Source of the DNA: Geomonas limicola
GTDB lineage: Bacteria; Desulfobacterota; Desulfuromonadia; Geobacterales; Geobacteraceae
Length of the DNA stretch: 64,000 nt
Direction: 5' to 3'
Assembly: GCF_014193675.1 (NCBI RefSeq)
Contig: NZ_BLXZ01000002.1
Location: forward strand, 558,001 to 622,000
Shown: piece after piece, positions 13,372 through 17,601 of the stretch
Layout of the letters: every line of letters starts with the position of its first letter
Position numbering within the stretch: position 1 is the first letter of the stretch
Made by a program: the position numbers and the translations under genes
The notes under the pieces: model-generated
What the model saw: the letters and a program-made list of their open reading frames with translations, nothing else
Database searches by the model: none
Told to the model about the DNA's origin: nothing

Positions 13372-14550
13372 ATGAACTTTCTTCTCGACCTCTACCTGCA
13401 CCTGCGCGTTCGCACAAGAATCGTGCTGCTTTGCTTTTGTTACAGCTTCTGCATCGTCATGGCGGTGATAGCCGGGCGCTACTTGTCGCTGTCACTGTGT
13501 GTGCTGTCGACCACGGTGTTCGTGCTGTTGGGCATCTTCTTCAGCAGTCTCTTGTTCTGGTCGGTGAACGATGCACTGAAGCGGATCATCGGGTCCCTCG
13601 AGACCATGATCCGGGGGGATCTCACCCAGCCGATCCAGGCGCTCCGCAACAACGAGATCAGTACCATCATTCGTGCGGTGGGCACCCTGCAGAGCACCAT
13701 GCGGGATATCATCGGGCAGATCCTGCAGACCGCGGACCACGTCGCCTGTGCTTCGCGGCAGCTGAACCAGAATGCCAGCGAGATCGCGGCCGGTACCGAT
13801 GACGTCGCCGTGAAGACCTCCACCGCGGCGGTGGCCAGCGAAGAGATGGCGGTTACCTCGGCGGAGATCGCCCGCAACTGCCAGAATGCCGCGGAGAGTT
13901 CCAACCGTGCCAGCGGCAGCGCCCGCGCGGGTGCCGACGTGGTGCGCGAGACCACCAGCGGCATGGAGCGGATCGCGACGCGGGTCAAGGACGCGGCGTG
14001 CACCGTGGAACAGCTCGGTGCGCGTTCGGACCAGATCGGCCAGATCGTCGGCACCATCGAGGACATCGCCGATCAGACCAACCTGTTGGCCCTGAACGCG
14101 GCGATCGAGGCGGCGCGGGCCGGTGAGCAGGGGCGCGGTTTTGCCGTGGTCGCCGACGAAGTGCGCGCCCTGGCGGAACGGACCACCAAGGCCACCCGCG
14201 AGATCGGCGAGATGATCCGCGCCATACAGAACGACACCAAGGGAGCGGTCAGCGCCATCGAGGACGGCGTCAGCGAAGTGGAACGGGGCGCGGAGCATTC
14301 CGTCGCTTCAGGACAGGCCCTGGAGGAGATCCTCGAGCAGGTCAACGAGGTTACCCGGCAGATAAGCCACATCGCGACCGCTGCCGAGCAGCAGACCTCT
14401 ACCACCGGAGAGATCTCGGGTAACCTGCAGAGCATCACCCAGGTCTTCCAGCAGACTGCACGCGGCGTCTCGGAAACCGCATCGGCAGCGGGGACGCTGT
14501 CGCAGCAATCCGACGAACTCCTCAGGCTGGTCGGGAAGTTCCGGCTGTAA
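13372..14550 (+). CDS. methyl-accepting chemotaxis protein
   Basis: A 392-residue receptor. Two closely spaced N-terminal hydrophobic segments (residues about 17-36 and 41-65) leave no periplasmic sensor domain. A short HAMP-like region (IIGSLETMIRGDLTQPIQAL) is followed by a long signalling coiled coil. The tip is the conserved [20 protein letters not shown] followed by [20 protein letters not shown]. It relays signals to CheA/CheW. Absence of a sensory domain suggests it senses membrane or cytoplasmic state, or pairs with another sensor. A FliA-type promoter lies upstream and a terminator downstream, so it is monocistronic. The last residues (LLRLVGKFRL) lack a CheR-docking pentapeptide. 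Confidence 0.92.
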   Translation: MNFLLDLYLHLRVRTRIVLLCFCYSFCIVMAVIAGRYLSLSLCVLSTTVFVLLGIFFSSLLFWSVNDALKRIIGSLETMIRGDLTQPIQALRNNEISTIIRAVGTLQSTMRDIIGQILQTADHVACASRQLNQNASEIAAGTDDVAVKTSTAAVASEEMAVTSAEIARNCQNAAESSNRASGSARAGADVVRETTSGMERIATRVKDAACTVEQLGARSDQIGQIVGTIEDIADQTNLLALNAAIEAARAGEQGRGFAVVADEVRALAERTTKATREIGEMIRAIQNDTKGAVSAIEDGVSEVERGAEHSVASGQALEEILEQVNEVTRQISHIATAAEQQTSTTGEISGNLQSITQVFQQTARGVSETASAAGTLSQQSDELLRLVGKFRL

Positions 14551-14572
14551 GGGGCTCATTGCCGGTTTGCAG

Positions 14573-14603
14573 GGGCAGTCGCAGCAGGCGGCTGCCCTTT
14601 TTT
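14573..14603 (+). terminator. intrinsic terminator after MCP gene
   Basis: Ten-bp stem GGGCAGTCGC / GCGGCTGCCC with loop AGCAG, followed by six T residues at 14598-14603. Confidence 0.8.
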
Positions 14604-14624
14604 GGAGGCTGAAAAGATGCTTCC

Positions 14625-14638
14625 TTGACTTTTGTCAT
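14625..14638 (+). promoter_or_regulatory. HcpR-like palindrome, class II activator position
   Basis: TTGAC-TTTT-GTCAT. The published HcpR (CRP/FNR family, nitrosative stress) consensus in delta-proteobacteria is of the form TTGACnnnnGTCAA, so nine of ten arm positions agree. A TATGCT at 14661-14666 fits a -10 box. The palindrome centre (14631.5) would then lie close to -41.5 from a start at about 14673, the usual place for a class II CRP-type activator. The assignment is an inference. Confidence 0.55.
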
Positions 14639-14673
14639 GACGCCCCTTGCCTCCTTTTGCTATGCTCGCCACC

Positions 14674-14985
14674 ATGGACACCGCAAACAAAGCCAAAAAA
14701 GAAGCAAACGACATCAAGGTCCTGCAGGCCTTTATCGGAACCTACTGCCGTGGCAAACACGGCTCCGCCAAAGGGGAACTCTGCCCGGATTGCCGGGAGT
14801 TTCTGGCCTACGCGGAGCTCAAGCGGCGCAAGTGCCCCCTCGACCCGAAGCCGACCTGCAAGCACTGCCCGATCCACTGCTACTCCAAGGAACGGCGCGC
14901 CCTGATCCGCGAGGTGATGGGCTACTCCGGAAGGCGGCTCATGCTGCGCGGGCGCCTGGACCTGGTCTGGCACTACTTCTTCTAA
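14674..14985 (+). CDS. YgbA-type 'nitrous oxide-stimulated promoter' family protein
   Basis: A 103-residue basic protein rich in Cys and His. The pattern ELCPDCREFLAYAELKRRKC, then CKHCPIHCY and IREVMGYSGRRLML, is the signature of the YgbA_NO family (PF11756), small cytoplasmic proteins induced by NO. The Cys pairs suggest a metal or Fe-S site. ATG 14674 begins MDTANKAKKE; two earlier in-frame ATGs (14647, 14662) would overlap the predicted promoter. No ribosome binding site precedes 14674, so translation may be leaderless. It is followed after 81 bp by a ferredoxin gene, probably in the same operon and under the HcpR-like site. Confidence 0.8.
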   Translation: MDTANKAKKEANDIKVLQAFIGTYCRGKHGSAKGELCPDCREFLAYAELKRRKCPLDPKPTCKHCPIHCYSKERRALIREVMGYSGRRLMLRGRLDLVWHYFF

Positions 14986-15066
14986 ACGAAACAACACGCT
15001 GTGCGGCTACCGTGCAGCCCCGGATACTTACTACCAAACGGGTCGCCCGGCGACCGGAAAGAGGAC

Positions 15067-15828
15067 ATGATGATTCGTAAAATCGTGCAGATCGACAAGG
15101 ACAAGTGTGACGGCTGCGGCCTGTGTGTACCCTCCTGCGCCGAGGGCGCCATCAGGATCGTGGACGGCAAGGCGGAGATCGCCGCCGACAACCTGTGCGA
15201 CGGGCTGGGCGCCTGCCTGGGCGAGTGCCCGCAGGACGCCATCACCATCATCGAGCGCGATGCGGATGACTTCGACGAAGTAGCCGTTGAAAAGCACCTG
15301 CAGGCCACCGGCATCGTCCCCAAGGCCCACGGTCATGGGCACGGGCACGGGCACGGGCATGGGCATGCCCATGGCGGTGGCGGCTGCCCTGGGTCGCGGG
15401 CGATGAGCTTCGCGCCGACCCCCGAGCAGCAGAACGCCGCCGGCAGCACGGTTTCCCGGCAGAGCCAGCTCGCCCAGTGGCCGGTGCAGCTGCACCTGGT
15501 CCCGACCACGGCACCGTACTTCCAGGGCGCGGATCTCCTCATCACTGCCGACTGCGTCCCCTTCGCCTACGCCGACTACCACCGCGACTTCCTGGCCGGC
15601 AAGGCCGTGGTGATCGGCTGCCCGAAGCTCGACGACAACAACGCCTACGTCACCAAGCTGACCGAACTGTTCCGGGTCTCCGACATCAAGAGCATCACCG
15701 TGCTGAAGATGGAAGTCCCCTGCTGCGGCGGGATCGCCATGGCCGCGCAGCGGGCACTTGCCGACTGCGGCAAGGAGATCCCCTTCAAGGTGGTAACTGT
15801 CAGCATTCGCGGGGAGATCGTCGGCTGA
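15067..15828 (+). CDS. dicluster ferredoxin-type protein with His/Gly linker
   Basis: A 253-residue protein. ATG 15067 is chosen for the AGAGGA before it; an upstream start would add 22 non-conserved residues. Residues 1-65 hold two 4Fe-4S motifs, CDGCGLCVPSC...C-type (the first full, ending in SCAEGAI) and CDGLGACLGECPQDAI, the second with CxxxxxCxxxCP spacing. A linker of alternating His and Gly (about 17 residues, including HGHGHGHGHAHGG) follows, then a domain of about 150 residues with GADLLITADCVPFAYADY, KAVVIGCPKLDD and KMEVPCCGGIAMAA, a Cys-rich fold found in hydrogenase- and Hcp-associated ferredoxins. It is probably an electron carrier induced with the YgbA gene; the His tract may bind Ni, Zn or Fe. 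Confidence 0.8.
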   Translation: MMIRKIVQIDKDKCDGCGLCVPSCAEGAIRIVDGKAEIAADNLCDGLGACLGECPQDAITIIERDADDFDEVAVEKHLQATGIVPKAHGHGHGHGHGHGHAHGGGGCPGSRAMSFAPTPEQQNAAGSTVSRQSQLAQWPVQLHLVPTTAPYFQGADLLITADCVPFAYADYHRDFLAGKAVVIGCPKLDDNNAYVTKLTELFRVSDIKSITVLKMEVPCCGGIAMAAQRALADCGKEIPFKVVTVSIRGEIVG

Positions 15829-15871
15829 ACCCGGTAGTGAGGACAAATCGGATGCTTTTTATCTTTTTTGA

Positions 15872-15900
15872 TTGACAAGTGTCATAGCTACTGGTAGAGT
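15872..15900 (+). promoter_or_regulatory. peroxiredoxin promoter overlapped by HcpR-like palindrome
   Basis: TTGACA (15872-15877), 17-bp spacer, TAGAGT (15895-15900) make a good sigma70-type promoter 46 bp upstream of the ATG. The -35 box is also the left arm of TTGAC-AAGT-GTCAT (15872-15885), the same palindrome as upstream of the YgbA gene. Because it overlaps the -35, a bound regulator would more likely repress than activate here. Confidence 0.5.
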
Positions 15901-15945: not shown

Positions 15946-16545
15946 ATGAGTCTTACTACCTTGGTTACCCAGGAAGCTCCCGATTTCACCGCACAGGCAG
16001 TCCTTCCCGACAACTCGTTTGCAGAAATTACTCTGTCGAAATACCGGGGCAAGTATGTCGTGCTGTTTTTCTACCCGCTCGACTTCACCTTTGTCTGCCC
16101 CTCTGAGATTCTTGCCTTCAACAAAAGAGTCGCTGAGTTCAAGGAAAAGAACTGCGAAGTCATAGGCATCTCGGTTGACTCGAGGTTCACGCATCTGGCG
16201 TGGAAAAATACTCCCGTCGACCAGGGCGGTATCGGCAACGTCCAGTATCCGCTGGTGGAAGACCTCACCAAAGACATCGCACGCTCGTACGGGATTCTGC
16301 TCCCGGGCGGCGTGGCGCTGCGCGGCCTGTTCCTGATCGACACCAAGGGGGTCGTGCGGCACACCGTCATCAACGACCTGCCGCTGGGCCGCAGCGTCGG
16401 CGAGGCACTGCGCATGCTCGACGCGCTGCAGTTCGTCGAGACCCACGGCGGCGAAGTCTGCCCGGCCAACTGGCAGGAGGGCGCCGAGTCCATGAAGCCG
16501 ACCAAGGAAGGGGTTTCCCAGTACCTTGCCAAGCACGGCAAGTAG
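15946..16545 (+). CDS. 2-Cys peroxiredoxin (AhpC/TSA, Prx1 type)
   Basis: A 199-residue peroxiredoxin. The peroxidatic Cys is in FFYPLDFTFVCPSEILAFNK and the resolving Cys in THGGEVCPANWQEGAE, the classic typical 2-Cys layout. The GGVALRGLFLIDTKGVVRH segment matches the GIALRG loop of Prx1. The C-terminus ends with a helix (PTKEGVSQYLAKHGK) containing a YL pair near the end like sensitive Prx1 enzymes. It reduces H2O2, alkyl hydroperoxides and possibly peroxynitrite. AAAAGGAG precedes the ATG. It is a single-gene unit with its own promoter and terminator. It is different in subfamily from the Bcp-type enzyme at 43.3 kb. Confidence 0.93.
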   Translation: MSLTTLVTQEAPDFTAQAVLPDNSFAEITLSKYRGKYVVLFFYPLDFTFVCPSEILAFNKRVAEFKEKNCEVIGISVDSRFTHLAWKNTPVDQGGIGNVQYPLVEDLTKDIARSYGILLPGGVALRGLFLIDTKGVVRHTVINDLPLGRSVGEALRMLDALQFVETHGGEVCPANWQEGAESMKPTKEGVSQYLAKHGK

Positions 16546-16808: not shown

Positions 16809-17219
16809 ATGCGTACTAAGGTGACTTTGTCGTCCTTGCTGTTGCTCGTGCTTCTTGCCAGTAGCACCTGTTTCGCCCTTGAAGAGGCCCAGCCCGAGGC
16901 GGTGACCGAGAAGATGGCCTTCAAGCTGGTGCGCGGGGTCGCGAACGTGACCACCTCGGTGGTGGAGATCCCCAAGCAGTCCTACCTGATGGTGCGCGAC
17001 CGCGGCAACGTGGGGTACGTGGTGGGGCCGCTCAAGGGGATGGGAATGGCCTTTTACCGCCTCTTTGCCGGCCTTACCGAAACCATCTTCTTTGCCGTTC
17101 CGCAGCCCGGGTACTACGACCCGATGATCGCCCCGGAGTTCGTCTGGCAGGGGTGGGAGGAAAAGCGGGTCGAACCGCGCAAGGCAGCTGCGGGTGGGGC
17201 AGATAAAAAGGGAGAGTAA
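16809..17219 (+). CDS. exosortase-system-associated protein, TIGR04073 family (copy 1)
   Basis: A 136-residue protein with a signal peptide (about 23 residues ending CFA) and AAGGAG before the ATG. The mature region contains FKLVRGVANVTTSVVEIPKQ, VGPLKGMGMAFYRLFAGLTE and PGYYDPMIAPEFVWQGW, the three conserved blocks of the TIGR04073 family, named for its frequent presence in exosortase/PEP-CTERM genomes. No exosortase gene lies in this window. A charged Lys/Arg tail follows. The middle may form a membrane-associated hairpin. The function is unknown, with a probable envelope location. Confidence 0.75.
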   Translation: MRTKVTLSSLLLLVLLASSTCFALEEAQPEAVTEKMAFKLVRGVANVTTSVVEIPKQSYLMVRDRGNVGYVVGPLKGMGMAFYRLFAGLTETIFFAVPQPGYYDPMIAPEFVWQGWEEKRVEPRKAAAGGADKKGE

Positions 17220-17220
17220 T

Positions 17221-17601
17221 ATGCGCGTCATACGCCCGGGAGGCCTTGCCGTCCTGATTGTCGCACTGTCCCTCGCGGTTTCCGGTCCGGCCCTGGCAGG
17301 AAGCCTCGGCAATACCCTCGACGACGCCTCGCCGCAACAGGTGGTGGACGGAATGGCGAACAAGCTGGTGCGCGGAGTGGCCAACATCGCCACCGGCTGG
17401 CTCGAGATCCCCAAGCAGATCTACATCACCTGGAAGGAAGAGGGGCCCGCCAAGGGGCTCACCGTCGGCCCCGTCAAGGGGATCGGCATGAGCTTGGTGC
17501 GCACCGGCGCCGGCGTCGGCGAGACGCTCACCTTCCCGGTCGCCTATCCCGGTTTTTACGACCCGTTCTTCGATCCGCCCTACGTCTGGCAAAAGGAGTA
17601 A
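17221..17601 (+). CDS. exosortase-system-associated protein, TIGR04073 family (copy 2)
   Basis: A 126-residue tandem paralogue. ATG 17221 begins one base after the stop of copy 1 and has GGGAG at good spacing. It carries a signal peptide (ends PALAGS) and the same blocks as copy 1: MANKLVRGVANIATGWLEIP, VGPVKGIGMSLVRTGAGVGE and PGFYDPFFDPPYVWQKE. It ends at VWQ plus two residues, without the charged tail of copy 1. The two form a translationally coupled pair that probably arose by duplication and could work as a heteromer. A terminator follows 20 bp after the stop. Confidence 0.75.
   Translation: MRVIRPGGLAVLIVALSLAVSGPALAGSLGNTLDDASPQQVVDGMANKLVRGVANIATGWLEIPKQIYITWKEEGPAKGLTVGPVKGIGMSLVRTGAGVGETLTFPVAYPGFYDPFFDPPYVWQKE

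Follow-up and report, generated by a model that had tools for sequence, protein, structure and literature searches.

The palindrome TTGACTTTTGTCAT at positions 14625 to 14638 (forward strand) of the window, the 64-kb stretch of Geomonas limicola DNA analyzed here, is probably an operator at which an HcpR-type regulator activates, from a class II position, ygbA and an FrdX-like ferredoxin gene; the ygbA message would be leaderless, the two genes would belong to a nitrite/NO regulon, and the palindrome before the neighboring peroxiredoxin gene is best read as a -35 box. The case is a comparative one: across genomes, the motif and its geometry are conserved, an HcpR-type regulator is present, and the same sites lie before hcp.

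Products of the ygbA and ferredoxin genes

The first gene behind this operator, ygbA (14674 to 14985, forward strand), encodes a protein of 103 aa that matches the YgbA_NO profile (PF11756; E value of 5.9e-24, 85 bits against a cut-off of 25) as well as NCBIfam model NF007714 (133.2 bits, cut-off of 88), and that carries seven cysteines invariant in 29 aligned relatives. Solved structures searched with a YgbA profile returned no matches, the predicted model (mean pLDDT of 80.9, four helices) had no fold match better than an E value of 5, and there was no match in PHROGs. YgbA is present in 45 of 48 genomes of the family and in 112 of the 117 genomes of our sample of the order.

The second gene (15070 to 15828, forward strand) encodes a ferredoxin with two 4Fe-4S motifs and a conserved C-terminal domain; its start is at 15067 or 15070, the latter fitting the relatives better. 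By profile, the products of the three genes are a YgbA_NO protein, a 4Fe-4S ferredoxin-like protein, and an AhpC/TSA peroxiredoxin, just as the first-pass annotation had proposed. The best named relative of the ferredoxin is that of Geomonas silvestris Red330 (89% identity; locus L196), whose peroxiredoxin is 97% identical, and its relatives are widespread, occurring in Clostridia, Methanoperedens, anammox bacteria, and Bathyarchaeota among the best 80 of 583 confirmed matches. Within 3.5 kb of the ferredoxin gene in these best 80 of 583, we found YgbA in 34 cases, a peroxiredoxin in 17, an hcpR-like gene in 10, and hcp in 4. The ten hcpR-like proteins from these best 80 of 583 carry Ser-Glu (nine) or Pro-Glu (one) at the two recognition positions and are 39 to 61% identical to the HcpR of the window's genome, against 24 to 30% for the other CRP/FNR proteins of that genome, which were matched in 6 of the 10. 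These neighborhood counts support a putative FrdX identity and appear to tie an HcpR-like regulator to the cluster.

Occurrence of the motif in the window and the genome

An exact scan of the window finds TTGACTTTTGTCAT and a second palindrome, TTGACAAGTGTCAT, at 15872 to 15885 before the peroxiredoxin gene, as the sole matches to TTGACNNNNGTCAW, in agreement with the two TTGAC-N4-GTCAT sites, and no third copy, first noticed there. These two matches compare with 0.08 expected, and two matches arose in 2 of 100 shuffles. Genome-wide (5.23 Mb), TTGACNNNNGTCAW has 28 strand matches at 20 distinct places, compared with 7 for a reversed control, and the exact motif is enriched in this genome. Sorted by simple gene calling and visual inspection, 15 of the 20 places are intergenic, 3 lie inside genes, 1 overlaps the end of a gene, and 1 has no called gene nearby. 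In some relatives, the reversed control is as frequent as the motif (12 against 13 in G003, 19 against 16 in G029), and a single exact match is therefore insufficient to make a site.

Conservation of the putative operator across the order

We used 81 YgbA loci, of which 80 were placed by tblastn (G038b was left out): 48 from the family (of 49 matches) and 32 from genomes of the order outside it, the latter drawn from 32 of 67 matching genomes, with 12 given by the search and 20 hand-picked and spread over families. Related genomes are not independent, and locus counts across the family and order include kin. The motif TTGA[CT]N4[GA]TCA[AT] occurs within 200 nt upstream of YgbA in 68 of the 80 loci, as TTGACN4GTCAT in 63, TTGATN4GTCAT in 3, and TTGACN4ATCAT in 2, and its last base is T in all 68. 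The site in the window agrees with the TTGACnnnnGTCAA-type palindrome at 9 of 10 fixed bases. An in-frame ATG lies 47 to 50 nt from the first base of the site in 67 of the 68 loci (49 nt in 48 loci, 48 nt in 17, and 50 and 47 nt in one each).

In a profile of 24 genera (one locus per genus, other spacings left out), the fixed half-site bases hold 1.75 to 2.00 bits, two of the four spacer positions are also conserved (1.03 and 1.50 bits), and so is a run of T before the operator (0.72 to 1.19 bits); most other upstream positions fall below 0.7 bits. On this comparison, the ygbA site is deeply conserved and probably serves a nitric-oxide-stress regulator.

The 12 loci that lack the motif comprise 11 divergent YgbAs and one second copy in G028 (67%). 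The divergent proteins (L093, L098, L121 to L128, and L164), with 27 to 41% identity over the matched part, make up a second YgbA type, around which the ferredoxin and peroxiredoxin neighbors were not recognized and the site was not found. At L097 (G026, probably Geomonas sp. Red32), the site reads TTGATTTTAGTCAT, which is off by a single base; an ATG does lie 49 nt away, but it is not in the frame of the YgbA match, the start of which is about 130 nt further downstream.

Promoter geometry and the predicted start of the ygbA transcript

The -10 box of the ygbA promoter, TATGCT (14661 to 14666, forward strand), occupies a position that is conserved in relatives. The center of the operator lies 29.5 nt before the first base of this box, which is the spacing of class II CRP promoters. 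The following counts come from 67 loci selected for the motif and for an ATG at 47 to 50 nt. A hexamer with A at its second position and T at its sixth, ending 6 to 8 nt before the ATG, is found in 67 of 67 (control position triples, 1 to 11 of 67), and the -10-like hexamer starts 36 nt after the start of the site in 63, which upholds the earlier assignment of a putative class II activator geometry with respect to TATGCT. Immediately ahead of the ATG stands C in 65 loci and T in 2. Shine-Dalgarno-like 4-mers precede ygbA in 9 of the 67; the ferredoxin gene has them in 26 of 38 loci and the peroxiredoxin gene in 36 of 36. Six of the nine at ygbA lie inside the -10 hexamer and three, by eye, abut it.

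With a -10 hexamer directly before the ATG in all 67 selected loci and little Shine-Dalgarno signal, the ygbA mRNA is probably leaderless, and the simplest reading places its start at the A of the ATG (14674 to 14676, forward strand). The promoter parts keep rigid distances (22 nt between operator and -10 box, 6 to 7 nt between -10 box and ATG), so that the transcript should start at the start codon or no more than about one nucleotide from it; this predicted coincidence of the transcription start with the start codon is a point absent from the first-pass annotation. The last T of the site sits where a -35 element would begin, and a role for it in sigma contact is speculation.

The same site could instead belong to a repressor, or ygbA could be transcribed from a promoter further upstream with an ordinary leader, the spacing being fixed for some other reason. 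HcpR is predicted to repress some Desulfovibrio genes (PMC1274295), and the 5' end of ygbA is itself a prediction from sequence, but the fixed -10-like hexamer followed by C-ATG, the class II spacing, and the scarcity of Shine-Dalgarno signal at ygbA all argue the other way, as does the region from 14500 to 14625, in which no sigma-70-like match was reported. We regard both of these variants as very improbable and retain activation from the class II position, with the start codon at or next to the transcript start.

Among the exact sites of the genome itself, an ATG at 47 to 50 nt occurs only at ygbA and at one site inside a called gene, where it is probably there by chance, and the hcp site is some 200 nt from the hcp gene; leaderless geometry is thus not general for the motif. 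In three Desulfuromonadales loci (L222:507-1672, L228:426-1550, and L238:595-1720), a gene for a lipoprotein-like protein of about 360 aa has a TTGACN4GTCAA site with an ATG 48 to 50 nt away, and an hcpR-like gene lies just upstream of it in L222 and L238 (none was found in the L228 stretch).

A bolder proposal treats the start codon of ygbA as the +1 of a class II promoter under HcpR, held in that place throughout the order by selection because leaderless translation is important during nitrosative stress. We put this forward tentatively and think it rather unlikely; if true, YgbA would be made while leadered mRNAs translate poorly, and the unrelated lipoprotein-like gene would supply another instance of a promoter class, tied to HcpR, in which the operator is set at a fixed distance from the start codon.

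The regulator and its predicted targets

A search of the genome with the PF13545 profile, the only one used to seek CRP/FNR genes, yielded four clear CRP/FNR proteins. When their recognition positions were aligned by eye to Escherichia coli CRP, only the protein encoded at C8:275797-276480 showed the Ser-Glu pair; two others have Arg-Glu, and one has Arg-Gln. The gene of the last stands beside CODH genes, and from its position we take it to be CooA. Two weak PF13545 matches (C3:30242 and C7:218380), below the cut-off and GntR-like by sequence, were dropped. The two recognition-helix positions have been tied to DNA specificity, and Ser-Glu fits the rule for TTGAC sites (PMC1274295). Relatives of this HcpR-type regulator occur at E values of 1e-40 or lower in 47 of 48 family genomes, and the recognition helix GTVSETLSR is found in 29 of 30 HcpR loci examined (L155 has a Gly). 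In the stretch scanned before hcpR itself, there was neither an exact site nor one with two mismatches. The first-pass annotation had made its proposal depend on an HcpR gene, and the genome holds an HcpR-type regulator as well as hcp genes.

Two sets of candidate targets were followed in 12 genomes hand-picked for completeness and spread, for which the site lists miss one motif match in G026. Of the 41 PF03063 genes, 13 have an exact site in the 400 nt upstream, at least one such gene being present in each of the 12 genomes (0.05 expected) and the sites standing 139 to 260 nt from the domain match; the other 28 of the 41, at least one of which is a CODH gene, have no exact site within 400 nt. 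In the window's own genome, the PF03063 gene at C2:389468 was rejected as hcp, as it matches the CODH catalytic subunit model TIGR01702. For cytochrome c552, 45 PF02335 rows were reduced to the 22 strong ones, with 5 split pieces merged in and 18 weak rows dropped; an exact site lies within 1 kb of 9 of these 22 genes, in 7 of the 12 genomes (0.07 expected), and 13 of the 22 have none.

In the genome that contains the window, exact sites adjoin an nrfA-type cytochrome c552 gene (C1:15334), a second cytochrome c552 gene (C14:1436), and hcp (C6:330873), and a NapA-type nitrate reductase gene starts about 560 nt from another (C6:198699). With the motif before hcp in 12 of 12 genomes and a Ser-Glu regulator present, the identification of the first site as HcpR-type in a nitrogen-oxide setting, as originally suggested, gains support from comparison. 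The site at C1:15334 (L026:2459-6039) lies between divergent genes for the nrfA-type cytochrome and for a hemerythrin-domain chemotaxis receptor that may sense O2 or NO. An operon with an exact site at C3:222627 (L032:4028-5393) encodes a 57-aa protein that is weakly similar, below the cut-off, to the hybrid-cluster-associated domain; a stand-alone FrdX-type C-terminal domain (53% identical) without the ferredoxin motifs; and a hemerythrin-domain protein. Other sites stand beside genes with no evident link: those for polysaccharide export, an M48 peptidase, an epimerase, and a pyrroline-5-carboxylate reductase.

The ygbA site could be genuine and of class II and yet be bound by some other regulator, either an undetected CRP/FNR protein or one of another fold. 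Its final T, without exception in the 68 loci, differs from the hcp sites, which end in A or T; a search by PF13545 alone defined the CRP/FNR set; and family genomes whose YgbA lacks a site (g13 and G001) mostly retain an HcpR relative. Against this stand the occurrence of the same motif before hcp in every one of the 12 genomes, the 10 ferredoxin loci (among the best 80 of 583) that have an hcpR-like gene with Ser-Glu or Pro-Glu nearby, and the Arg that the other three CRP/FNR proteins have at the first recognition position. We consider a different regulator improbable and HcpR the likely occupant of the site.

The peroxiredoxin promoter

The peroxiredoxin gene (AhpC/TSA, 199 aa; 15946 to 16545, forward strand) has its own promoter, TTGACA-N17-TAGAGT at 15872 to 15900, the better of two promoter-like matches between 14500 and 16800. 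Its -35 box, TTGACA (15872 to 15877, forward strand), is the left half of the second palindrome, and its -10 box is TAGAGT (15895 to 15900, forward strand); the overlap of this palindrome with the -35 box of a good promoter was thus correctly recognized at the outset. ygbA, the ferredoxin gene, and the peroxiredoxin gene occur together in 36 family loci, with a gap between the latter two of 120 to 219 nt in 29 loci and of 622 to 1,920 nt in 7. Upstream of the peroxiredoxin gene, TTGACA is found in 36 of 36 loci and the half-site GTCAW in 2 of 36, those of the window and of G024. The second palindrome is best read as an ordinary -35 box with a chance half-site, not as an HcpR site.

With GTCAW in just 2 of 36 loci, nothing here speaks for an opposing HcpR site at the peroxiredoxin gene, and the palindromes do not form a pair around the cluster; the suggestions that HcpR represses from the second palindrome and that the two palindromes enclose one cluster were accordingly given up. 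The second palindrome might still work as an HcpR site of recent origin, acquired by the lineage to which the window and G024 (probably Geomonas silvestris) belong. The exact palindrome precedes the peroxiredoxin gene in both, and G029 and G032 have GTCAG at the place of the second half-site; nevertheless, the half-site is confined to 2 of the 36 loci, and the window and G024 are so close (97% identity in the peroxiredoxin, 90% in YgbA) that sharing is expected without selection. We hold such a recent gain to be unlikely and keep to the -35 box. An A/T-rich imperfect inverted repeat just before this box (15842 to 15869, forward strand), conserved across the family as judged by eye, is possibly an operator or an UP-like element. 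Downstream of the peroxiredoxin gene, at 16809 to 17601 of the window, are two similar-looking small genes, the first of which matches TIGR04073, an exosortase-associated model.

Discussion

Taken as a mechanism, nitrite or NO would be sensed by HcpR, which would bind at 14625 to 14638 and contact RNA polymerase as a class II activator, giving rise to a leaderless message for ygbA and, if the two are co-transcribed, frdX. We infer the binding, the activation, the NO or nitrite signal, the co-transcription, and the 5' end from sequence. HcpR1 of Desulfovibrio desulfuricans is reported to bind heme (PMC5701242). At the level of guesses, FrdX may pass electrons to Hcp or to another NO-stress enzyme, and YgbA, with its seven cysteines, may harbor a site for a metal or an Fe-S cluster. 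The same nitrite/NO-stress regulon would also hold hcp, the nrfA-type cytochromes, and probably napA.

In enterobacteria, ygbA follows NO stress (PMC5320621); the literature searched offered no mechanism for YgbA, as far as the parts covered go. The predicted link of YgbA in Geobacterales with a ferredoxin gene, made by a rigid promoter and an unrelated regulator, suggests an old role in dealing with NO, and the pairing of the two genes points to a possible redox partner for YgbA. The ygbA promoter also offers a natural test case for stress-controlled leaderless translation. Nitrate-ammonifying Geobacteraceae release N2O, with Hcp-Hcr proposed as the NO-reducing step (PMC11633192), and control of the regulon may therefore bear on N2O output.

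The system resembles the HcpR regulon of deltaproteobacteria, whose Geobacter and Desulfuromonas targets, according to Rodionov et al. (2005; PMC1274295), include hcp, frdX, and nrfHA: it shares with that regulon TTGACnnnnGTCAA-type sites, a Ser or Pro in the recognition helix, and the hcp, putative frdX, and nrfHA targets. It differs in that the ygbA site ends in T, whereas the published HcpR consensus ends in A. The portion of that paper covered here names ygbA solely as a target of NsrR and does not mention leaderless geometry, and neither titles nor the starts of abstracts described ygbA as controlled by HcpR or as having a leaderless mRNA; the ygbA-frdX operon may already be listed in Figure 2 or Table S1 of PMC1274295, which fell outside this scope. 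As with the NsrR-controlled ygbA of enterobacteria, ygbA would here be tied to nitrate or NO stress, but NsrR is an Rrf2 repressor (PMC5320621), and the regulator family, the operator, and the gene context all differ. The regulon, then, is known in kind. Class II CRP/FNR promoters are familiar, as are bacterial leaderless mRNAs with the ATG at or next to +1; compared with either in general, the predicted ygbA promoter combines the two and does so with little variation over an entire order.
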